From: a virus
Length of the DNA stretch: 33,068 nucleotides
Virus record (IMG/VR): IMGVR_UViG_3300046327_000277
Span: 1-33,068 of that record
Strand: one strand, 5' to 3'
The first letter of the stretch is position 1. Each line of letters begins with the position of its first letter. Position numbers and translations under genes: made by a program. Under the pieces are notes generated by a model, which was not told the DNA's origin, did no database searches, and saw only the letters and a list, made by a program, of their open reading frames with translations. This document shows positions 8,155 to 33,068 of the stretch, piece after piece.

Positions 8155-8558
8155 AACAGGAAGAGCTAGACGAACGCTATATGCGCATGGCCGAGATATG
8201 GGCCGAAAATTCACGAGCTAAGAGGCTTAAGGTCGGGGCCTTGATTGTCAAAGATGGGTCAATCATATCCGACGGCTACAATGGCACTCCCGCGGGCTTC
8301 GACAACGAATGCGAAGACGCAGACGGAAACACTAAGCCAATAGTGCTTCATGCCGAAGCCAATGCAATTGCCAAAATTGCCAAAAGCAGCAATAGCAGCT
8401 TGGATTCTACGATTTATGTATTATATTCGCCTTGCATAGAGTGCGCAAAGCTTATCATTCAAGCAGGCATTTCGCGCGTTGTATACAAGCACACATACAG
8501 GCTTTTAGATGGTTTAACCCTGCTGGCTCAAGCTGGTGTAAATTTGACTCAAATATGA
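8151..8558 (+). CDS. dCMP deaminase (deoxycytidylate deaminase family)
   Basis: A 135-residue zinc-dependent deaminase. The signature 'HAEANAIAK' gives the zinc ligand H67 and catalytic E69, and 'SPCIECAKLI' gives C95 and C98. The upstream 'DGYNGTPAGFDNECED' is typical of dCMP deaminases and contacts the nucleotide. The expected reaction is dCMP to dUMP, feeding dTMP synthesis for phage DNA. No thymidylate synthase or dUTPase is seen in this window, so that step would rely on the host or on genes outside. It overlaps its neighbours by ATGA on both sides. Confidence 0.92.
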   Translation: MKQEELDERYMRMAEIWAENSRAKRLKVGALIVKDGSIISDGYNGTPAGFDNECEDADGNTKPIVLHAEANAIAKIAKSSNSSLDSTIYVLYSPCIECAKLIIQAGISRVVYKHTYRLLDGLTLLAQAGVNLTQI

Positions 8559-8920
8559 ATATCCTAGAGAGGGCCGACCAAATCGTCAACGGCCGCACAG
8601 AAGAGAAGGAGCGCCAATACGGCGACTTCCACACTACCATGAACAACATGCGCGACATATTCAATGCTATGACCGGGCACAAGCTCGAGACGCGCGATAT
8701 GTACATGGCTATGGTCGCAATGAAGCTTGCACGGCAGAGGTTTGCGCATAAGGAAGATAACCTATTGGACCTAGTCGCCTACGTTGGCTCGCTGAACGAC
8801 TTGGAAGAGCAGATCAGCGAATTCAAAGCAAGCAAAGAGGCTGAAGCACGGCAGCACGAACCTCAATCTATTGGCTGTTGCAGTTGTGGCTTTCCTGCCA
8901 CTGTTGGATGCAACTGCTGA
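8555..8920 (+). CDS. DUF6378 family phage protein with a Cys-rich tail
   Basis: A 121-residue protein starting at the ATG that overlaps the deaminase stop (ATGA); an in-frame extension to 8432 lies wholly inside the deaminase gene and is not used. 'ILERADQIVNGRTEEKERQYGDF' at the start and 'KEDNLLDLVAYVG' near residue 82 match DUF6378, a small helical phage family often found beside nucleotide-metabolism genes; its acidic residues recall nucleotide pyrophosphohydrolases, but that is only a guess. The last ~17 residues add five cysteines (CCSC...C.C). This tail is encoded by DNA that belongs to the iteron array starting here, so it may be a by-product of repeat spread rather than a functional domain. 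Confidence 0.82.
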   Translation: MNILERADQIVNGRTEEKERQYGDFHTTMNNMRDIFNAMTGHKLETRDMYMAMVAMKLARQRFAHKEDNLLDLVAYVGSLNDLEEQISEFKASKEAEARQHEPQSIGCCSCGFPATVGCNC

Positions 8921-8923
8921 CAA

Positions 8924-8946
8924 ATCCAAACAATGATTGTTTGGAT
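8924..8946. repeat. Palindrome 1 of the AAACAAT array
   Basis: ATCCAAACAAT (8924-8934) and ATTGTTTGGAT (8936-8946) form perfect 11-bp arms around a single G, four bases after the DUF6378 stop codon. The flank ATCC/GGAT differs from the other palindromes but is fully complementary. Confidence 0.9.
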
Positions 8947-8979
8947 GCAATCTATTGGCTATCAATCAGTTACAGAAAA

Positions 8980-9015
8980 GCGCCTAAACAATATAAACAA
9001 TGATTGTTTAGGCGC
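8980..9015. repeat. Palindrome 2 of the AAACAAT array
   Basis: GCGCCTAAACAAT (8980-8992) and ATTGTTTAGGCGC (9003-9015) form perfect 13-bp arms. The 10-nt loop holds a further AAACAAT copy. The GC-rich flank GCGCCT/AGGCGC is unique to this palindrome. Confidence 0.9.
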
Positions 9016-9046
9016 AACTGTTTGATAATCAATGAGTTAAGTACCC

Positions 9047-9188
9047 ATAAACAATATAAACAATAAAACAATAACAAAAACAAAGACCTCTGCATCCCTA
9101 TATTATATGAATATCTATAATACCAATATTCATATATTCTATATTTATCCCTTCTTATTTATATAATATTATTGTTTATATTGTTTAT
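9047..9188. repeat. Long inverted repeat enclosing the AT-rich core
   Basis: A 20-bp arm at 9047-9066 (two AAACAAT copies, 9 bp apart) is the perfect complement of 9169-9188. The arms enclose about 100 bp of AT-rich sequence, which itself holds the inverted repeat TATATGAATAT (9104-9114) / ATATTCATATA (9126-9136). Confidence 0.85.
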
Positions 9189-9206
9189 ATAGATATAAGA
9201 TATTGA

Positions 9207-9275
9207 TTTTCAATCAGTTACACATAAACAATGAGATTTTTATTGTTTATGGGACTTTTCGTAAGTGATTGAAAA
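9207..9275. repeat. Nested inverted repeat (iteron outside, palindrome 4 inside)
   Basis: Outer arms 9207-9221 and 9261-9275 are 15 bp with one mismatch and carry the CAATCAGTTAC-type element in opposite orientations. Inner arms CATAAACAAT (9223-9232) and ATTGTTTATG (9242-9251) are perfect. Confidence 0.8.
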
Positions 9276-9288
9276 CCAATGGCTTACG

Positions 9289-9319
9289 CATAAACAATGA
9301 ATTGAATACATTGTTTATG
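9289..9319. repeat. Palindrome 5 of the AAACAAT array
   Basis: CATAAACAATG (9289-9299) and CATTGTTTATG (9309-9319) form perfect 11-bp arms around a 9-nt loop. It comes one base after the iteron at 9267-9287 and is the last palindrome before the early promoter. Confidence 0.88.
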
Positions 9320-9333
9320 GCTAAAATAATTTG

Positions 9334-9432
9334 AAAATAATTGGTCAAAAACTTTCAAGTGTCAATACTAGTGCCTACTTTAGCAACATAATCAAACACT
9401 CAAACACTCAAACACTCTAACACACCAACACC
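9334..9432 (+). promoter_or_regulatory. Early promoter-leader repeat, copy A
   Basis: A conserved unit: AAAATAATT, then TTTC (9353-9356) as a -33-like box, a 19-bp spacer, TACTTTAG (9376-9383) as the -7 box, and a 49-nt leader with no G that ends CACACCAACACC right before the ATG. The leader contains three tandem CAAACACT units. The spacer holds the direct repeat AGTGTC/AGTGCC, a possible operator. It is nearly identical to copy B at 9764-9854. Confidence 0.75.
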
Positions 9433-9774
9433 ATGGCTACTTTAGAAAACATCAACGCCGCAATGCAACTTCTGCCCGCAAGTTTCTATCTTGGAAAGCG
9501 TAGCAGCTTAGAAGCTTTAACAAACAATAAAGATGGGTATATGTTTAAGGTTTCCGGCGTCGTTATTTTGAACGGCACAGAACTTAGCTTAGAAAACTAC
9601 TACGTAAGCGTAGATGGTATTGTTAGGGCCTTAGTAAGGCATGCAAGTGTTATGCAAGACACTAACATTGAAGAGTTGGTGCAAGTTGGCACTCAAGTTC
9701 TTGATTTGCTTAATGTTGAAACAGTTATGTATTGCTTAGAAAAAGGTTTGGTTTTTACAACCAAAAATAATTAG
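9433..9774 (+). CDS. Small early protein of unknown function, 113 aa
   Basis: I do not recognise this protein. It is 113 residues, soluble, without a signal peptide, membrane segment or cysteine motif. The middle is predicted beta-rich ('YMFKVSGVVILNGTELSL' around residues 36-53) and the end looks helical ('LVQVGTQVLDLLNVETVMYCL'). It is the first of a run of small genes behind the early promoter-leader repeat, and codes with a more AT-rich, less biased codon choice than the replication genes. The start is fixed by the conserved leader ending ACACC before ATG. Its stop TAG lies inside the next copy of the repeat, so gene plus leader form a cassette. Position and promoter suggest an early accessory role such as host takeover or anti-defence, but nothing in the sequence proves that. 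Confidence 0.8.
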   Translation: MATLENINAAMQLLPASFYLGKRSSLEALTNNKDGYMFKVSGVVILNGTELSLENYYVSVDGIVRALVRHASVMQDTNIEELVQVGTQVLDLLNVETVMYCLEKGLVFTTKNN

Positions 9775-9854
9775 TCAAAAACTTTCAAGTGTCAATACTA
9801 GTGCCTACTTTAGCAACATAATCAAACACTCAAACACTCTAACACACCAACACC
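9764..9854 (+). promoter_or_regulatory. Early promoter-leader repeat, copy B
   Basis: Matches copy A except for one substitution (A at 9773) and one fewer CAAACACT unit. The -33-like TTTC is at 9783-9786 and the -7 box TACTTTAG at 9806-9813. The first bases overlap the end and stop codon of the upstream gene. Confidence 0.75.
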
Positions 9855-10151
9855 ATGGCAAAATTAACAACCAAAACTACAAAGCCTAGTGGCCGATTTG
9901 GTTACATGTACGTAATTACTGAAATAAAGCTGAACGGTGTGCGTTGCGGAAGCATAAGCCAAAGCTCGCCACACCAAATAACGCTGTCTGTCTTCAAAGA
10001 AGATTTGGACGAAGATAAAAACCCAAACTGTCCATTCAAAAACATTCACCTTGCGGCAAAGTTTGAATCAGTAGCCCAAGCAAAAGCATGGCTTAGCGAA
10101 AAGTCTGAGATTTTGCAAGCTAAATACAATATTTACGCACTTAAAGACTAA
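9855..10151 (+). CDS. Small early protein of unknown function, 98 aa
   Basis: Not recognised. A 98-residue basic-to-neutral protein starting MAKLTTKTTKPSGRFGYMY, with a beta-rich first half ('YVITEIKLNGVRCGSI') and a short acidic stretch (DLDEDKN, about residues 50-56). A helix follows near the end ('SVAQAKAWLSEKSEILQA'). No transmembrane segment or enzyme motif is visible. The start is set by promoter-leader copy B, whose ACACC abuts the ATG. The next gene begins 4 bp after the stop, so the two are probably made from one message. Its function is unknown; an early accessory role is inferred only from its promoter. Confidence 0.78.
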   Translation: MAKLTTKTTKPSGRFGYMYVITEIKLNGVRCGSISQSSPHQITLSVFKEDLDEDKNPNCPFKNIHLAAKFESVAQAKAWLSEKSEILQAKYNIYALKD

Positions 10152-10155
10152 AGCT

Positions 10156-10698
10156 ATGTACGAAGGAAAAGAAATATGCCAAGGCTGCCAAAAGCCGGGC
10201 ACCGAGAAGCCAAGGCAGCACAGGCATGGATTGTGCAGCGGATGCAACAAAACACTTAGGGCTGGCGCTGAAGTGCTTGCCATAGAAAAGTCAGATAAGG
10301 CGCCACGCATTATGGTGCGTCAGCACTTCCATGCTTTTAAGTCTAAAAGCGCAAACGATGTTGCTTTTGCCTTATTGTCAGCACTTAATGAGCCAAATGC
10401 GCCGTATATGCGAGCAGATACGCTTAAATACACCTTTGGCACAAATCAGTTCTATATAGTGCGCGAAGACGTGTTTGAAGCGCTCAAGCCTGTGATGCTG
10501 AAAATAGACGAAGAGCTGTATAAGCATGAAATGGAGATGTGCAATATGTCTTACACTGTGCGCGACGCCGTGGCAGCCGAAAAAGAGCGCATCTATAACG
10601 AAGGTGTGCAGCATGGGCGGAACCTGCTTATGCAACTGAACAGCGGAACCTTGACACTCTCGGACCTCGATAAAAATGTTGCCTACACTGAAAAATAA
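10156..10698 (+). CDS. Small protein with an N-terminal zinc ribbon, 180 aa
   Basis: A 180-residue protein of unknown family. The N-terminus has four cysteines, C8-x2-C11 and C27-x2-C30, with a basic, His-rich stretch between them, a likely zinc ribbon that could bind nucleic acid. Residues 55-120 look like an alpha/beta domain ('SANDVAFALLSALNEPN' ... 'TNQFYIVREDVFEAL'), and the C-terminus is helical and charged ('AVAAEKERIYNEGVQHGRNL'). It lies 4 bp after the preceding gene and has no promoter of its own, so it shares copy B. The stop TAA lies at the start of promoter-leader copy C. A regulatory or nucleic-acid-binding early protein is a reasonable guess; no function is assigned. Confidence 0.78.
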   Translation: MYEGKEICQGCQKPGTEKPRQHRHGLCSGCNKTLRAGAEVLAIEKSDKAPRIMVRQHFHAFKSKSANDVAFALLSALNEPNAPYMRADTLKYTFGTNQFYIVREDVFEALKPVMLKIDEELYKHEMEMCNMSYTVRDAVAAEKERIYNEGVQHGRNLLMQLNSGTLTLSDLDKNVAYTEK

Positions 10699-10781
10699 TT
10701 GGCCAAAAACTTTCAAGTGTCGATACTAGCACCTATATTAGCACTATCAAATTATCATTCACTCTCAAACACACCAACACC
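10691..10781 (+). promoter_or_regulatory. Early promoter-leader repeat, copy C
   Basis: A diverged copy: AAAAATAATT and CAAAAACTTTCAAGTGTC are kept, the -33-like TTTC is at 10711-10714, and the -7 box is TATATTAG (10734-10741). The 40-nt leader after it has no G and ends CACACCAACACC before ATG 10782. Confidence 0.7.
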
Positions 10782-11078
10782 ATGACAAAGAATGAAAAAC
10801 TAGTTTCAGTAGCCGTAAAAAAACAAGCTGGTGTTTTTACACATGTCGCAAAGTTCAACAACACCAATAACGCTAGCAAAAGGACTGCTACGCAAGTTAA
10901 AGCCATTTTGACGTCTGCAGGCTTTGATAAGGCAATAACTGTAGAAAATACAGGCAATGGCCGCAACTTTTGTGTTGGTGTAGCAGATACAATCAACATG
11001 CGCATGCGCTTGAAAAGCCTTGGCTTTATTCTTGAGCGCAGCAACGGCGGCCCTGTTACTTATATTTCATGTTTCTAA
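10782..11078 (+). CDS. Small early protein of unknown function, 98 aa
   Basis: Not recognised. A 98-residue basic protein with no cysteine cluster, signal or membrane segment. It reads as alternating strands and helices: 'VSVAVKKQAGVFTHVAKF', a linker 'NNTNNASKRTA', a helix 'TQVKAILTSAGFD', and a last part 'MRMRLKSLGFILERSNGG' ending in a strand. The compact alpha/beta layout recalls small RNA- or DNA-binding phage proteins, but I cannot match it to a family. It is expressed from promoter-leader copy C. The next gene begins 12 bp after the stop, with the same CACACCACCAC leader end. Confidence 0.75.
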   Translation: MTKNEKLVSVAVKKQAGVFTHVAKFNNTNNASKRTATQVKAILTSAGFDKAITVENTGNGRNFCVGVADTINMRMRLKSLGFILERSNGGPVTYISCF

Positions 11079-11090
11079 CACACCACCACT

Positions 11091-11447
11091 ATGCTACTAG
11101 GATTAAGATATGCAGAGCAGCTTCAGACTGCGCAAGCCGAATTGCTTGACTTCTGCAAAAGCGAAAATGTGCGCATAAGCCGCGTGCTAGCTATGGACTA
11201 CTACTATAAGCAGGGCGTTGAAGTGATAAACGTGTGGACGCTATCAAGCAAAGGCCAAATAAGCCAGCATAGGCGCAAAATAGACTACAACAGCGATGAT
11301 AGTTCTATGACCCAATATTGGTTCGACGTAGATGCGTCTAGCATGGAAGATATTGAATGGATATATAGCAATACGCTTGGCAAAGTGGTTATGGTTCTGC
11401 TGCATTTAGGCAAGTCAGTTTTTTGGGCAAAACAGATACAATTTTAA
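11091..11447 (+). CDS. Small protein of unknown function, 118 aa
   Basis: Not recognised. A 118-residue protein with an N-terminal helix ('LRYAEQLQTAQAELLDFC'), a central Tyr/Trp-rich beta region ('MDYYYKQGVEVINVWTL') and an acidic segment ('YNSDDSSMTQYWFDVDASSM'). The end is hydrophobic ('GKVVMVLLHLGKSVFWAK') but interrupted by charge, so a membrane segment is doubtful. The ATG follows CACACCACCACT, which matches the last part of the early leaders without their promoter, and the previous stop codon forms the first bases of that block. It is the last gene before the late-region hairpin-promoter at 11460. Confidence 0.72.
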   Translation: MLLGLRYAEQLQTAQAELLDFCKSENVRISRVLAMDYYYKQGVEVINVWTLSSKGQISQHRRKIDYNSDDSSMTQYWFDVDASSMEDIEWIYSNTLGKVVMVLLHLGKSVFWAKQIQF

Positions 11448-11459
11448 CTGTAAAAATAA

Positions 11460-11499
11460 ATATGGAACTTTGTTTTTGTTTTAAGACAAAGTTCCATAT
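11460..11499 (+). terminator. Hairpin overlapping the late promoter
   Basis: ATATGGAACTTTGT (11460-11473) and ACAAAGTTCCATAT (11486-11499) form perfect 14-bp arms with a 12-nt loop, 13 bp after the last early gene. It can end early transcription, or act as an operator dyad, because the promoter at 11475-11504 lies across its loop and right arm. Confidence 0.75.
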
Positions 11500-11504
11500 A
11501 TTTG
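11475..11504 (+). promoter_or_regulatory. Late promoter before the terminase genes
   Basis: TTTG (11475-11478), an 18-bp spacer and a perfect TATATTTG (11497-11504) make a consensus Bacteroidota promoter. It is followed by a leader of tandem GCACCAAAA units up to the ATG at 11538. The -33 box is in the loop of the hairpin and the -7 box begins in its right arm. Confidence 0.8.
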
Positions 11505-11537: not shown

Positions 11538-12095
11538 ATGGCAAAGGAAATACACAAAAAAACGGGCGAAGAATTCGACAGCCCTTGGAGGCGCAAGTCT
11601 TTGCGCAGCGATATGTTCAAAAAGAACGGCAAGCGCAAAAGCATAGAAGATGCGCCGAAGTTTTGGGCCCTCGCCTGCGAGTACTTCGCGGAAGTGGACG
11701 AAAACCCGATATACAGGAATGAGCTGCTTAAAAGTGGAGACCTTGCAGGCACGCAGGCTCAAGTGACTTTAGCCCGCCCGTATTCATGGCGCGGATTCGA
11801 AGCTTTTCTAGTACTGCGTGGCATAGTAAGCAAGCTAGATGACTATCGCTATAACACGCTTGGCAGGTATGACGACTATATAGAAGTAGTGCAGGCAGTC
11901 GGCAGCGTGATGCACGCCCAAAAATTCGAAGGCGCTTCTGTTGGGCTATTCAATGCGAACATAATCATGTCGGATTTGAAGATGGCAGAGATTGTGCACA
12001 CGCACTTGAGCGGCAACGTGTCCAACGAGCCTGAATACGACAAGCTAAGCGATGAGACGCTTGAAGACATTGCAAGAAACACACCAAAGCAATAA
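11538..12095 (+). CDS. terS: Terminase small subunit
   Basis: A 185-residue DNA-packaging protein that should recognise phage DNA and load the large subunit. The open frame reaches back to a TTG at 11502, but that codon is inside the promoter -7 box and its first 12 codons are the leader repeats, so the ATG at 11538 is taken. Recognisable are the charged start 'KKTGEEFDSPWRRKS', 'RPYSWRGFEAFLVLRGI' and, near the end, 'EGASVGLFNANIIMSDLKMAE', the pattern of small terminase subunits in which a cytosine-free 'FNANII' helix precedes the oligomerisation part. The large subunit starts 5 bp after the stop. The family call also rests on this position. Confidence 0.85.
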   Translation: MAKEIHKKTGEEFDSPWRRKSLRSDMFKKNGKRKSIEDAPKFWALACEYFAEVDENPIYRNELLKSGDLAGTQAQVTLARPYSWRGFEAFLVLRGIVSKLDDYRYNTLGRYDDYIEVVQAVGSVMHAQKFEGASVGLFNANIIMSDLKMAEIVHTHLSGNVSNEPEYDKLSDETLEDIARNTPKQ

Positions 12096-12100
12096 CAGAT

Positions 12101-13528
12101 ATGCAAGGCCTAAAAGTGTCAGCAGATAAGGCTTTGGCCGAACTATGCAGGCGCAGCTTCTATAGGTTCCTGCAAGAATTTTGGAGTGTCTTGATTCCTG
12201 AAGTGCCCGTGTGGAATTGGCATATAAAGTACCTATGTGACGAATTGCAGTACCTCAATGCGTTCGTTGTGGCCCGTAAGCCTAAGCCATACGATTTAGT
12301 GATAAACGTGCCGCCGGGTTCTACTAAGTCAACTATAGCCTCGCAGGCGTATAACGCTTGGATTTGGACTGTTGACCCGACACAAAGGATAATAGGTGCA
12401 AGCTATGCAAATGCCCTATCCTTATCGCATGCCATTAAGACGCGCGATATTGTACAGTCAGACAAGTATAGGCGCCTATTTCCCGAGGTCGAATTGAAGT
12501 CAGACCAAACAGGCAAATCCGACTTTAGGAATACGCATGGCGGGCAGCGCTTCACCACATCGACAGGCGGCTCTATAACAGGCATGCACGCGCATCAGAT
12601 AATCATCGATGACCCTATAAACCCGCTGCAAGCAGCTTCGGACACAGAGAGGCAGTCGGCAAATGACTTCGTAACGAAAACGCTATCGACTAGGAAAATA
12701 GACAAGGCTGTTACGCCTACCATATTGATTATGCAGCGCCTGCACGAGCAGGACCCCACGGGCGTAATGCTTAGCAAAAAAGCGAACAAGATTAAGCATA
12801 TATGCCTGCCTGCAGAAGACGAAGGCAACGTGCTTCCGAGAGAGATAGCGGCAAACTACGTAGATGGGCTTTTGGACCCCGTGCGCCTTAGCTTAGAAAT
12901 ATTGGAAGAATCGAAGACAGACTTAGGGGGCTACGGCTATGCTGGGCAATTCAAGCAGAAGCCGGCGCCAGACGAAGGCGGCATTCTTAAAAAAGCGTGG
13001 TTCGATGTTGTGGATTGGCAGCCGGGCTTTGAAGCACTATGTTGGAACGTGGCAGCAGATACTGCATACACAGCAAGCGATAAGAATGACCCTAGCGGCT
13101 TCATTGCCTATGCGGAATACCAAAACACGTTCTATATACGAAGCATCGCCGTAGAGCATCTAGAATTCCCCGAGCTTTGCCGAAGCATAGCTTCTTTCGC
13201 AAATATGAACGGCTATACGAGGCGCAGCATGATTTATGTAGAGCCGAAAGCCTCGGGCAAATCATTGGTGCAGACGATAAGGCGCGAGACGTCTTTGAAC
13301 ATCACGGAGGGAGCGAACCCAACGACAGACAAGATAGCGCGAGTCAAAGGCATAAGCCCTATGTGCGAAGCTAAAAGGGTTAAACTTATTCGCGGTGTGT
13401 GGAATGAACAATTCTTAGACGAAGTCTGCACGTTCCCTAATGCTGCGCATGATGAACTAGTCGACTGCCTTACAATGATGTTGGATGGGCAGCGGAAAAA
13501 AAATATTGGCATTCGTAGAACTAATTGA
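12101..13528 (+). CDS. terL: Terminase large subunit
   Basis: A 475-residue packaging ATPase-nuclease. The ATPase domain has Walker A 'NVPPGSTKST' (69-78, K76) and Walker B 'IIIDDP' (167-172), with 'MQRLHEQDPTG' (211-221) as the coupling region. The C-terminal RNase H-like nuclease shows its acidic residues in 'NVAADTAYTAS' (D320), 'MIYVEPKASGKSL' (E381) and 'AAHDELVDCLTMM' (D451, D455). It should pump DNA into the prohead through the portal and cut it. The length is normal for the family. The last codons run into an A-rich stretch before the next promoter. Function is sure. Confidence 0.96.
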   Translation: MQGLKVSADKALAELCRRSFYRFLQEFWSVLIPEVPVWNWHIKYLCDELQYLNAFVVARKPKPYDLVINVPPGSTKSTIASQAYNAWIWTVDPTQRIIGASYANALSLSHAIKTRDIVQSDKYRRLFPEVELKSDQTGKSDFRNTHGGQRFTTSTGGSITGMHAHQIIIDDPINPLQAASDTERQSANDFVTKTLSTRKIDKAVTPTILIMQRLHEQDPTGVMLSKKANKIKHICLPAEDEGNVLPREIAANYVDGLLDPVRLSLEILEESKTDLGGYGYAGQFKQKPAPDEGGILKKAWFDVVDWQPGFEALCWNVAADTAYTASDKNDPSGFIAYAEYQNTFYIRSIAVEHLEFPELCRSIASFANMNGYTRRSMIYVEPKASGKSLVQTIRRETSLNITEGANPTTDKIARVKGISPMCEAKRVKLIRGVWNEQFLDEVCTFPNAAHDELVDCLTMMLDGQRKKNIGIRRTN

Positions 13529-21860: not shown

Positions 21861-24063
21861 TCAACTGAAATACTCGGACTTTGTCAAGCCGGATGAAAGC
21901 ATAACAAATCTAATAGCACAGCTGGAGGAGTTGCTAAAGCACTATGGCATGCTATACGGCAAAATAAAGGCGGACGCGCAAGACCTAGAAAAGTCAATGA
22001 AGTCTGCATCTACAGCCACGGACACCGGCCGCAAAGCCATTGAAAAAGCGACGGCTGAAGCAGACAAATTAGCTGCGGAATATGAGAAGCTTACGGCTGC
22101 GCAATCAGACACTGCCAATGAGCTTGCTAAGCTGCGCGCAGAGCAGCAGAAACAGAACGCCGTAAACAAGCTAACTGAAAAGTTTAATAACTCGCTAGAG
22201 GGTTCCTATGACAAATTAAGCGCGCAGTATTCTTTGAATGTTATGAAGCTGAATGCTATGTCAAAAGCAGAGCGTGAGCTATCGCAAGAGGGCTTGATGC
22301 TAACTGCATCTACAAAAGACGTACGCAATGAAATGAAACGCTTGAAAGAAGAAACCGAAGACCATCGCTTGTCTGTGGGTGACTACGAAAAAGGGTGGCG
22401 TGGACTTGTGCAGCAAATGTCAGAAACTAACGGTGCCGCTGGTAGCGCTGCGCAGGGTATTGGTGGCTTAGACGACGCGGCAAAAAAACTTTTAGCTAAT
22501 CCCATAGTGTTGATGTTATCAATACTTGCAGCCACGCTATATGGTCTGTTTAGCCTATTCAAAAGAACCGAATCGGGAGCCGACTTGATGGCAAAAGCCA
22601 CGGGCGCTTTGAACGCTGTTTTGTCTATCGCTGTAGGCGTAACAGACAAACTATATAAAGCTATGCTTTCGGCTTTTGAAAACCCACAGCAGGCGCTTAA
22701 AAACTTAGGAGAGGCAATAGTAAAACAGGTTCTTAATAGGCTTAATTCGTGGACGCTAATAGCTAAAGCAGCTGGTCAAGCTATGCAGGCCCTTGCAAGT
22801 AGGGATATGGCAGCATTGGAACAGGCTGGCAAAGACGCAGGCACGGCTTTGATTCAAATGACTACCGGCTTAGATGCCCAACAGCAACGCGAATTTGGCA
22901 AAGCTATAGCAGATACTACGGAAGAGATAAAAGCGCAGACAGCGGCATTTGTGGCGCTTGAGGCTTCTCGCAGAGGTGTACGCAAAGAAAACAGGAACCT
23001 GCAGAGAGCACTTGAAGAAGTAATAACAAAAGAGGAGCTAGCAAAAGCAGTTGCCGACGACGCGACAAAGTCTTTCAAAGAGCGCGAAGCGGCAAACAAA
23101 GAAGCCCAAGAAGCAACAATAGAGAGGGCTAAGCTTGAAACAAAAATAGCGTCTAACAATTTAGGGCTAATTAGCCGTGAAATTGATATGCGCAGCAAAA
23201 ACGGCGAAAACGTGGAAGAACTGCTTGATGCGCAGCTCGGAGCCTATTCGCAGTTGAAAGCTGCGCAGCGCAGTTATCTGTTGGCTGTGCGCGACAACGA
23301 AAAAATAGAGTCTGAGCTCAAACAGGATAGGCTTGAAAAAGACCTAGACATATTGATTGATGGTTTTGAAGCGCAGCAAGCTATAAACTTAGCTATTGCA
23401 AACGATACTACGCTAACTGAACAAGAGAGGCGCAAAAAAATAGAGGAGACTCGGGCACTAGCTGAAAGGTCATTTGCAAAGCAGATGGAAACCATACAAC
23501 AGTTCACAGGTATAAGCTTGGATTCGACGGCCCTAATAACAGAGGCGGATGCTGTAGCGCTTAACCAAAAAATAAGGGCTTATGACCTTTCGGAAGTTAT
23601 TGAGGGCAGATTGCTTGAGGCAGTCAACGGCCGCAAGAATGCTTTGGTGGGGCTATCTGAAGCAGAAAAAAAGCTAGCTGCAGACAAACTAAAAGCAGAG
23701 CAAGACGAACTTAAGCTTAAAAAAGAGAGTGCAGCAAAGCAATACGATAGCGCCTTGGTAGCCTATGAGCAGGAAAAAGAGCTGCGCATATCTGAAATAG
23801 ATTTGATGCAGGTTACGGAAGCTGAAAAGACAAAACTAAAGCTTGCTGCAGAAAAGGACCGGCTTGAAAAAATGCTTAAGCTAAACGCCGACGTTGAGGG
23901 CCGCATGACAGATATGCAGGTGGCCGCTGCTCGCAACACAATAAAGAAACTTGAGGCAGAAATAGCCAAAGCAGGTGGTGGTGAAAATAAAGACTTGTAT
24001 GCAGCCCTTGGTTTTGATTTGGACGACGAGCAAAAGCTGTTTCAGATTCGCTTAAGTTCATAA
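21850..24063 (+). CDS. Tape measure protein, N-terminal and central part (frame broken)
   Basis: A 737-residue helical protein with long coiled coils (for example 'AIEKATAEADKLAAEYEKL', 'LEKDLDILIDGFEAQQAIN', 'AEKTKLKLAAEKDRLEKML') and a hydrophobic stretch 'PIVLMLSILAATLYGLFSLF' near residue 220. This is the look of a tape measure protein, which sets tail length and helps DNA enter the cell. It ends early, at TAA 24061-24063, after 'DLYAALGFDLDDEQK'. In relatives I know, that block continues into 'AISDSL' and a C-terminal domain with 'YGDGG..FL.GGSHASGND'. Both appear here in the frame of the next entry. A lost base at the CAAAAG run (24031-24036) explains the break. Confidence 0.88.
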   Translation: MADSQLKYSDFVKPDESITNLIAQLEELLKHYGMLYGKIKADAQDLEKSMKSASTATDTGRKAIEKATAEADKLAAEYEKLTAAQSDTANELAKLRAEQQKQNAVNKLTEKFNNSLEGSYDKLSAQYSLNVMKLNAMSKAERELSQEGLMLTASTKDVRNEMKRLKEETEDHRLSVGDYEKGWRGLVQQMSETNGAAGSAAQGIGGLDDAAKKLLANPIVLMLSILAATLYGLFSLFKRTESGADLMAKATGALNAVLSIAVGVTDKLYKAMLSAFENPQQALKNLGEAIVKQVLNRLNSWTLIAKAAGQAMQALASRDMAALEQAGKDAGTALIQMTTGLDAQQQREFGKAIADTTEEIKAQTAAFVALEASRRGVRKENRNLQRALEEVITKEELAKAVADDATKSFKEREAANKEAQEATIERAKLETKIASNNLGLISREIDMRSKNGENVEELLDAQLGAYSQLKAAQRSYLLAVRDNEKIESELKQDRLEKDLDILIDGFEAQQAINLAIANDTTLTEQERRKKIEETRALAERSFAKQMETIQQFTGISLDSTALITEADAVALNQKIRAYDLSEVIEGRLLEAVNGRKNALVGLSEAEKKLAADKLKAEQDELKLKKESAAKQYDSALVAYEQEKELRISEIDLMQVTEAEKTKLKLAAEKDRLEKMLKLNADVEGRMTDMQVAAARNTIKKLEAEIAKAGGGENKDLYAALGFDLDDEQKLFQIRLSS

Positions 24064-31831: not shown

Positions 31832-31867
31832 AAAATGGACGCATTCATAATAGGATGCGTCCATTTT
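31832..31867 (+). terminator. Rho-independent-like terminator
   Basis: AAAATGGACGCAT (31832-31844) pairs with ATGCGTCCATTTT (31855-31867) over 13 perfect bp with a 10-nt loop, directly after the stop at 31827. It separates the late side from the promoter at 31984. The rest of the 220-bp gap up to 32047 is AT-rich, with no gene seen. Confidence 0.88.
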
Positions 31868-31983
31868 CAATCCAAATACAAAAGTAATGATTTTATATAT
31901 CCTATGATTAAAGTGTCATAGAAGTCATTAGAATCACTATCACTAAGCATTAAAAATATTTTTGAAAATAATTCTTAAAAAAT

Positions 31984-32047
31984 TTTTTATTGTCGCGGCA
32001 AGTGCCTACTTTAGCACTATCAAATTACAAAACAAACCCCGACAACC
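31984..32047 (+). promoter_or_regulatory. Early-type promoter-leader, copy D
   Basis: The core AAGTGCCTACTTTAGCA is the same as in copies A and B, with TACTTTAG at 32007-32014 as the -7 box and a T-run as -33. AGTGC/GCACT flank the box as a perfect 5-bp inverted repeat. The leader up to the ATG is A/C-rich with one G. This places the following genes under the same control as the early cassettes more than 20 kb to the left. Confidence 0.7.
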
Positions 32048-32467
32048 ATGCACATATCTAATAAACTTCAAGCAATTTATGACGCTGCAAACCGTCCTGA
32101 AAAATGCGACAACAGAAACTTTGCCACAAAAGCAATAAACACAGCTTTGCAATTTGAGCATGTGCAAATCCTAATTGCGCCACAAGGCAAAGTGTTTGTA
32201 AGTGGCACAAAAAAGCACAACGTCAAAATACGCGTAGCTAACAGACAAAGAACGGCGCTAATGGACGTAGTAAGTTCTGAAAAAATGCTGCCAATGCTTG
32301 CTTCTTTGTTGGAAGAAACTAAAAGCCAAATGCCTAAAGAATCTGAAGGCACTAAATGCTGCAAATGCAATGGCAGCGGCATAATTAAAGCTTTTATGCA
32401 CATCTATAATGGCGTCTGTTTCGATTGTCTCGGTATTGGCTACACATTCAAATCTAACGCACAATAG
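32048..32467 (+). CDS. Small protein with a DnaJ-like zinc finger, 139 aa
   Basis: A 139-residue protein. The C-terminal third has C104-x2-C107-x-G-x-G and C124-x2-C127-x-G-x-G ('CCKCNGSG' and 'CFDCLGIG'), one half of the DnaJ-type zinc finger, which binds one zinc ion. There is no J domain. The N-terminal ~90 residues form an alpha/beta region with 'ALQFEHVQILIAPQGKVFVS' and a basic patch. Stand-alone CxxCxGxG proteins occur in phages and plasmids as nucleic-acid- or protein-binding factors. Expressed from the early-type promoter copy D; the next gene starts 2 bp after the stop. Its function is unknown. Confidence 0.8.
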   Translation: MHISNKLQAIYDAANRPEKCDNRNFATKAINTALQFEHVQILIAPQGKVFVSGTKKHNVKIRVANRQRTALMDVVSSEKMLPMLASLLEETKSQMPKESEGTKCCKCNGSGIIKAFMHIYNGVCFDCLGIGYTFKSNAQ

Positions 32468-32469
32468 TT

Positions 32470-32784
32470 ATGACAGCAGTAAAGAAAGGCGAAACAGTGT
32501 ATGCAGTCTTGAATGGCCGCATACAGAACCTAGAGACAGTTAAGGAAGTGCACAAAGGCTTAGCAGCGCTTAGCTCGGGCACAACGGTTGTAGCCAAACC
32601 CGATAAGTTTGGGGAGCTGCTGCAATCCACAAAGCAGACTATGCTAAAGTATTATGCAGAAACCGAACAGATTAAGCATGCTTGGGAGCGGCAAGAGCTT
32701 ATCACGTACTTGAGCAGTGTGAACTTCAAAGAAGTGCCTTTGGTGAAAATGCGCAAAATAGCCGCAGTGCTCAAGAACCAATAA
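32470..32784 (+). CDS. Small protein of unknown function, 104 aa
   Basis: Not recognised. A 104-residue basic protein, mostly helical in its second half ('KFGELLQSTKQTMLKYYAET', 'VNFKEVPLVKMRKIAAVLKN'), with a short strand-rich start 'GETVYAVLNGRIQNLETVKE'. It has no cysteine motif and no membrane segment. It lies 2 bp after the zinc-finger gene and shares its promoter. Its last codons and stop form the left arm of the hairpin at 32778, so transcription of this unit probably ends there. Confidence 0.75.
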   Translation: MTAVKKGETVYAVLNGRIQNLETVKEVHKGLAALSSGTTVVAKPDKFGELLQSTKQTMLKYYAETEQIKHAWERQELITYLSSVNFKEVPLVKMRKIAAVLKNQ

Positions 32785-32814
32785 AAAAATATTCTTAAAA
32801 ACTTTTTTTATTGG
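32778..32814 (+). terminator. Hairpin at the end of the unit, overlapping the next promoter
   Basis: CCAATAAAAAAA (32778-32789) and TTTTTTTATTGG (32803-32814) pair perfectly over 12 bp with a 13-nt loop. The left arm contains the stop codon of the preceding gene, and the promoter of the next gene starts in the right arm. Confidence 0.75.
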
Positions 32815-32833
32815 AAAACGCTTATTATCTTTA
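32804..32833 (+). promoter_or_regulatory. Probable promoter of the regulator gene at 32850
   Basis: TATCTTTA (32826-32833) fits the -7 box, and the T-run in the hairpin right arm fills the -33 place after an 18-bp spacer. The leader ACAAAAACAAAAAAACT has no G. The sequence ATTCTTAAAAA before it is shared with copy D. Confidence 0.55.
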
Positions 32834-32849
32834 CAAAAACAAAAAAACT

Positions 32850-33068
32850 ATGCGCATCGACTTAAAAGCCATAGTGGAACAGTCAGGCATAGATTTCAAT
32901 AGCTTCGCCTTGGCTTTATTTCCACACAACAAACACTCGCACATGGCACTAAGGCGTGCCATGGACAAAAACACTATGCTGAACGAAAGCCAAGTATACC
33001 TACTCGCTAAGATGTTAGACGTCGAGATCCAAGACCTATACACAAGCGGATGGAAACTAAAGGCAAAC
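32850..33068 (+). CDS. Probable XRE-like helix-turn-helix regulator (gene runs out of the window)
   Basis: The first 73 residues of a protein whose end lies beyond the window. It starts MRIDLKAIVEQSGIDFNSFA and continues 'LALFPHNKHSHMALRRAMDK' and 'LNESQVYLLAKMLDVEIQDL', the order of helices of an XRE/Cro-type DNA-binding domain: a start helix, a turn, a recognition helix, and a last 'L..LA.ML.V.I.DLY' helix. Similar small regulators stand at the edge of the early region in Bacteroidota phages. It might control the early promoters with the shared -7 core. The helix-turn-helix is inferred from pattern, not from a confirmed match. Confidence 0.7.
   Translation, partial: MRIDLKAIVEQSGIDFNSFALALFPHNKHSHMALRRAMDKNTMLNESQVYLLAKMLDVEIQDLYTSGWKLKAN

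Follow-up and report, generated by a model that had tools for sequence, protein, structure and literature searches.

Moron-like accessory genes, repeated start-associated sequences and promoter-marked early genes are already known, and the locus described here is of that kind. In Cluster K mycobacteriophages a repeat lies directly upstream of the start codons of many unrelated genes, either as SAS, a 13-nt motif (GGGATAGGAGCCC) with many copies genome-wide, or as the longer element ESAS, whose consensus differs between subclusters (PMC3203893). In the archaeal virus SIRV2, the presence of early genes under a shared regulatory sequence led to the prediction of anti-defence genes, two of which were confirmed (PMC11065993). 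Morons are independently transcribed accessory genes usually described in temperate phages (PMC6469090), and in T4 segmental amplification and deletion via microhomologies of 6-10 bp, with changes in the dosage of small counter-defence genes, have been observed experimentally (PMC9391042).

The locus lies in the IMG/VR virus record IMGVR_UViG_3300046327_000277 (33,068 bases, without end repeats), the whole of which was analysed and is referred to here as the window. A segment of about 90 bases, the leader, occurs in it in four copies (A to D), each directly before a different gene (Table 1). As with SAS and ESAS, the repeated element precedes unrelated genes; unlike SAS, the leader is a predicted promoter of about 90 nt with an SD-less 5'UTR, present in four copies that each stand before a single AT-rich gene. 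The SAS motif itself does not stand at the end of the leaders, and the last 45 nt of copies A to C contain at most one G. As in SIRV2, accessory genes each sit behind a near-identical upstream regulatory sequence, although SIRV2 uses archaeal TATA/BRE promoters in more copies and its early timing was measured, whereas the timing in the window is deduced from position. The likeness to morons (PMC6469090) consists in the insertion between conserved genes, at a place where about six lineages have no convincing gene, and in an atypical composition, which is confined here to the leader-headed genes and does not extend to their followers; the promoter-like leader and a hairpin (11460-11499) at the block end would, if they act as promoter and terminator, add independent expression to the likeness. 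In the window, three units have a repeated leader in common and a single hairpin at their end. T4 is a precedent for the route proposed below in that short direct repeats recombine there; those of the window are 90 bp long and would recombine in a similar way. Integron cassettes carry attC 3' of the gene, unlike the window repeat, which is 5', ends at the start codon and has a weak RNA-side fold. In a limited search of open-licence literature we found no precedent for the combination of one leader per AT-rich orphan, two operon boundaries and lineage-specific leaders.

Matches to the head and tail genes and to TerL came from Croceibacter phage P2559Y and from several further viral contigs, with TerL identities of 67-72% to the nearest relatives over most of the protein. 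P2559Y has the same gene order (exonuclease, ssDNA-binding protein, DNA polymerase, helicase, small endonuclease, helicase), and all the TerL relatives in bacterial genomes are in Bacteroidota assemblies; judged by these genes, this is a virus of Bacteroidota bacteria. The sole near relative, IMGVR_UViG_3300048690_000214, showed 100% identity across the 16 kb that were read, so that this contig offers no comparison. Among the relatives compared, none was another strain with a changed set of cassettes in which exchange at the repeats could be seen. Two adjacent P2559Y genes, 24 and 25, have their counterparts at opposite ends of the window, in the truncated HTH gene and in the fragment at 2-322 respectively. 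From this synteny we estimate that the record could be an almost complete genome, circularly permuted and missing a few hundred bases.

Table 1 Features of the window, with coordinates and strand
Feature	Coordinates	Strand	Description
Box array ("array 2")	8921-9330		11 TAAACAAT/ATTGTTTA sites, doubled sites flanking an AT-rich core
Leader A	9334-9432	+	Predicted promoter (-7 element TACTTTAG at 9376) and G-free 5'UTR
Orphan gene behind A	9433-9774	+	113 aa; GC 38%; stop TAG at 9772
Leader B	9764-9854	+	Differs from A by one base and one 8-bp unit; holds the stop codon of gene 9433
Orphan gene behind B	9855-10151	+	98 aa; GC 40%
Follower, leaderless	10156-10698	+	180 aa; N-terminal CxxC...CxxC; GC 47.5% (average); stop TAA at 10696
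Leader C	10691-10781	+	Diverged copy; -7 element TATATTAG at 10734; holds the stop codon of gene 10156
Orphan gene behind C	10782-11078	+	98 aa; GC 41%
Translation-start remnant of leader	11074-11093	+	18/20 match through the ATG of gene 11091
Follower, without promoter copy	11091-11447	+	118 aa; average composition at fourfold sites
Hairpin at the end of the cassette block	11460-11499	+	Arms of 17 nt; about -23 kcal/mol
terS -7 element TATATTTG	11497-11504	+	terS promoter
Small terminase subunit gene (terS)	11538-12095	+	Right boundary of the insertion
Terminator-like hairpin	31832-31868	+	Late operon end
Leader D	31962-32047	+	Fourth copy, before gene 32048; -7 element TACTTTAG at 32007
Orphan gene behind D	32048-32467	+	139 aa; C-terminal CxxC-type zinc motif; GC 40%
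Follower	32470-32784	+	104 aa; average composition
Candidate fifth copy E	about 32781-32849	+	Much diverged, weak
HTH-like early gene	32850-33068, cut by window end	+	Resembles P2559Y gene 24 by eye and position

Leaders A and B align with 90 identities, one mismatch and one 8-nt gap (BLAST self-match 2e-35), and their identity begins exactly at 9334 and 9764 and extends over the first 5 nt of the genes (ATGGC). Leader C aligns to A with 76 identities and 14 mismatches, and it was recovered at E 1e-15 by a model built from A and B alone. An earlier sequence-only reading of this DNA had described A and B as alike except for one base and one 8-bp unit, C as a diverged copy, and gene 11091 as retaining the leader's tail; the alignments bear out all three, the last by an 18/20 match over the 20 nt through the ATG, the only such match in the window outside the leaders. 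Its tally of three copies was correct for A, B and C and missed D, which a held-out model (A, B and C only) recovered at E 6.8e-8 and whose alignment to A or C beats all 2000 dinucleotide shuffles (z 12-13). It also had each copy begin in the end of the preceding gene, as B and C do with the stop codons that they enclose, but A follows the 410-bp box array. The copies are sharp-edged, the 3' edge being the start codon. C and D are far more diverged than A and B, and just 3' of the -7 element C has more in common with D than A or B do. The putative copy E resembles D only, with a local score of 24 that was reached by 3 of 2000 shuffles, and has no match to A or C. When viral contigs were searched with a 17-nt leader core, the identical contig was the sole true match and the others were chance matches in different contexts.

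The promoter consensus of Bacteroidota comprises TTTG at -33, a motif reported to be weak in general, and TAnnTTTG at -7, with a mean leader length of 33 nt (PMC6847099). In every copy TAHHTTAG lies 33-49 nt from the ATG of its gene, as far upstream as expected (TACTTTAG in A, B and D, TATATTAG in C), with one mismatch to TAHHTTTG, T to A, at a position reported to be nearly invariant. The terS, 13592 and 17396 promoters of the window match TAHHTTTG in full, and the leaders' mismatch is common to the HTH-gene promoter of P2559Y and of two further relatives, G006 and G008 (TAATTTAG). A division into early TAnnTTAG and late TAnnTTTG is true in the window, but we dropped it because TAATTTAG precedes the late 17396 homologue in P2559Y, G006 and G008. 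The -33 element is weak by inspection (TTTC in A to C, TTTT in D, about 19 nt spacing), and an A-rich tract lies farther upstream in each leader. Between the -33 and -7 regions the stretch GTGTCRATACTAG is conserved in A to C and absent from D. D also has a second, full match to TAnnTTTG (TATTTTTG) 50 nt upstream of its -7 element (window 31957-32014), and TATTTTTG is likewise found in the P2559Y and G008 HTH promoters, 26 nt upstream of TAATTTAG.

The 5'UTR that follows is C/A-rich with little or no G, differs in length between copies by an 8-bp unit and folds no better than shuffles. Adenines at -3 and -6 are reported to be positive determinants of translation start in Bacteroidota, and both are found before the SD-less genes 9433, 9855, 10782, 11091 and 32048, so that these starts have A-3, A-6 and weak structure around the start, as SD-less starts of Bacteroidota do. 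Altogether the leader looks like a predicted Bacteroidota-type promoter joined to an SD-less translation start, with no special element required, and the proposal that the leaders are promoter and translation-start modules agrees with the placing of the -7 elements, the unstructured UTR and the two adenines. The mismatch at the nearly invariant -7 position and the weak -33 element count against it.

Leaders A, B and C head a block that fills the 2.1 kb between the box array and terS, with A immediately right of the array. The array holds all 11 TAAACAAT/ATTGTTTA sites of the window, where 0.1 would be expected in 410 nt, and its box is a 17-bp palindrome, TAAACAATgATTGTTTA. An array built in this way lies immediately upstream of terS in L014, P2559Y (L015), L016/L017, L018/L019 and L020/L021, and in L022/L023 with GAAACAAT boxes. 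In these approximately six lineages the interval between array and terS holds no convincing gene, and the last box lies 44-89 nt from the terS start (286 in L014). The cassette block is absent from these relatives, the nearest of which share no more than 67-72% TerL identity with the window. P2559Y, G004, G006 and G008 have a second array ahead of the early operon, whereas the window has no box there and has leader D with genes 32048 and 32470 instead; both cassette sites are therefore operon boundaries. D sits directly after the late operon's terminator-like hairpin, at the position of the relatives' promoter for the HTH-exonuclease-SSB-polymerase operon, and it resembles the P2559Y HTH-gene promoter with a score reached by 2 of 2000 shuffles.

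The array itself is possibly a replication origin or the operator array of a regulator. Binding by the small terminase subunit was considered and appears unlikely, since phages with TAAACAAT arrays do not all have a recognisable relative of this subunit next to them (11538 has no match in L018-L021) and the related subunit of L022 has GAAACAAT boxes beside it. Several relatives have arrays twice, bracketing the early region, and the box has changed to GAAACAAT in the L022/L023 lineage; examples lie at 7600-8060 in L018, at 4590-5000 in L022, and at 23628-23863 and 42881-180, across the record start, in P2559Y (G002). At the other end of the block, the 3' arm of the closing hairpin overlaps the terS -7 element, so that a terminator-like structure and a late promoter overlap (11460-11504).

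The four genes directly behind the leaders (9433, 9855, 10782 and 32048) exceed all others among the window's 36 genes in AT content, both by total GC and by GC3 (chance 1.7e-5), a ranking that holds once the frame of 8555-8920 is set right. At fourfold sites their GC is 31% (56/182) versus 49% elsewhere (2070/4224; p 1.5e-6), figures that for the leader-headed class come from four short genes. The AT-rich genes might also be old ones under special codon selection. The followers 10156, 11091 and 32470 are of average composition. Late genes that stand behind a promoter (11538, 13592 and 17396) have GC-rich third positions, so that AT-richness is not a general effect of adjoining a promoter. The composition break coincides exactly with the leader-headed genes in two places 22 kb apart, and this is where the earlier suggestion of a repeated unit made of leader plus one gene finds its support. 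Its count of five cassettes has to be reduced to three leader units at the locus, with a fourth at 32 kb, since 10156 and 11091 are leaderless and of average composition.

The description of the proteins as unfamiliar was also justified: searches of families, phage proteins and viral contigs gave no convincing relative of the leader-headed and follower proteins except in the identical virus, and PADLOC gave none either. Genes 9855 and 9433 had no match in 395 Bacteroidota genomes. For 10782 we rejected a resemblance to enoyl-CoA hydratase (NCBIfam E 0.037) and matches in two bacterial genomes (E 2e-4 and 6e-4), because these are short similarities inside larger proteins, at about chance level over the 395 genomes searched, and a match of 32048 to one of the 395 sampled genomes (2.7e-4) was at chance level too. 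Single-sequence structure models of 9855 (pLDDT 56) and 10782 (pLDDT 47) were not usable.

Repeated leaders are also present in relatives. G004 has three copies, 84-93% alike, of the form TTTG-N20-TATCTTAG, two of which precede only very short frames (22 and 26 aa); G006 has two copies of its own leader; and L022 (434-3092) has three copies of a different leader, about 110 nt long, which in each case runs up to the start codon of a short gene. In these three genomes the leaders mostly end at the start codons of unrelated genes. Because each repeats its own, different leader before unrelated genes, the arrangement is, on comparison of the genomes, a habit of the family, with sequence and cargo specific to the lineage. 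Other repeats were noted in the relatives: in L022 (434-3092), a 150-nt terminator-like repeat that occurs twice around short genes, some of them paralogues; a 56-nt repeat with a GGCTCC...GGAGCC dyad before two unrelated accessory-region genes in L016 (969-1024 and 2904-2959; G004 359-414 and 2294-2349); and, in the accessory region of G008 (12460-12974; L068-L070, reversed), about 500 nt of tandem repeats with a 15-nt period, ending at the start of an 82-aa ORF.

We consider it reasonably probable that the leader works as a complete expression module, copies of which have been set at two operon boundaries in front of single AT-rich genes of foreign appearance. Such a module would combine an A-rich upstream tract, a promoter of the Bacteroidota primary-sigma type, transcription beginning a few dozen nt ahead of the gene, and a C/A-rich, unstructured 5'UTR on which translation would begin in the SD-less "Kozak-like" context used in Bacteroidota. 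A, B and C would occupy the boundary between box array and terS, and D the one that separates the terminator of the late operon from the HTH early gene. An ORF joined to the leader at its ATG would be expressed on its own, timed with the early operon, while the leader's first bases could also provide the preceding gene with a stop codon, and the hairpin at the block end would insulate the block from terS. The near identity of A and B would allow homologous recombination between the two to double a single gene, swap it or remove it. Because D resembles the P2559Y promoter at the same place, it is likely the source and A to C ectopic copies, an order of events that we reconstruct from the sequences. 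Promoter activity, and recombination as the route, are what we infer from the motifs and the repeats. Early timing, which had been claimed for the block, is plausible from the position of D at the head of the early operon. By analogy with the archaeal viruses, accessory, host-specific roles such as counter-defence would be a reasonable expectation. The further idea that the leader is an acquisition device, copied into operon boundaries and capturing single AT-rich ORFs at their ATG, so that phages of the family would build up and trade orphan genes ready for expression through recombination between leaders specific to each lineage, is tentative and in our view rather unlikely.

That the leaders belong to long-resident genes and are kept alike by one phage or host factor, without any capture, is possible though doubtful. 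Concerted evolution of this sort has been proposed for the start-associated sequences of Cluster K mycobacteriophages, and it would agree with leaders that are repeated within each relative and different between genomes (three copies in G004, two in G006, three in L022) and with the early-operon position of D. It accounts poorly, however, for a composition break that falls exactly on the leader-headed genes in two places 22 kb apart, for relatives without the block, and for the much greater divergence of C and D than of A and B, which suggests serial copying and not uniform upkeep.

The genes could also descend from tandem duplication of one leader-plus-gene unit, having later diverged beyond recognition. 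Duplication does occur in the family, where the leader-headed operon genes 1732 and 2841 of L022 are detectable paralogues (E 4e-8), but outside the 8-bp unit A and B differ by one base while no pair among 9433, 9855, 10782 and 32048 is similar at E below 5; complete divergence of the genes behind such leaders is impossible unless gene conversion restored the leaders, and we regard this explanation as the least probable of those considered. Hardly more credit is given to the leader as mainly an RNA control element (an attenuator, a riboswitch or a protein-binding 5'UTR) or a repressor operator, with its promoter character incidental. The stretch GTGTCRATACTAG could be a protein site, but it is not kept in D, the folds predicted for the 5'UTR do not exceed shuffles in stability and the UTR length varies by the 8-bp unit, which makes such an element very unlikely.

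If the reading of the leader as an expression module is true, repeated leaders would be a sequence rule for accessory, possibly counter-defence, genes in Bacteroidota phages, complete orphans included, in the way that early-promoter motifs already serve that purpose in archaeal viruses (PMC11065993). The composition break at the leader-headed genes would provide a second, independent handle on them, and with several relatives having a repeated leader of their own, the rule could be tested on large phage collections.
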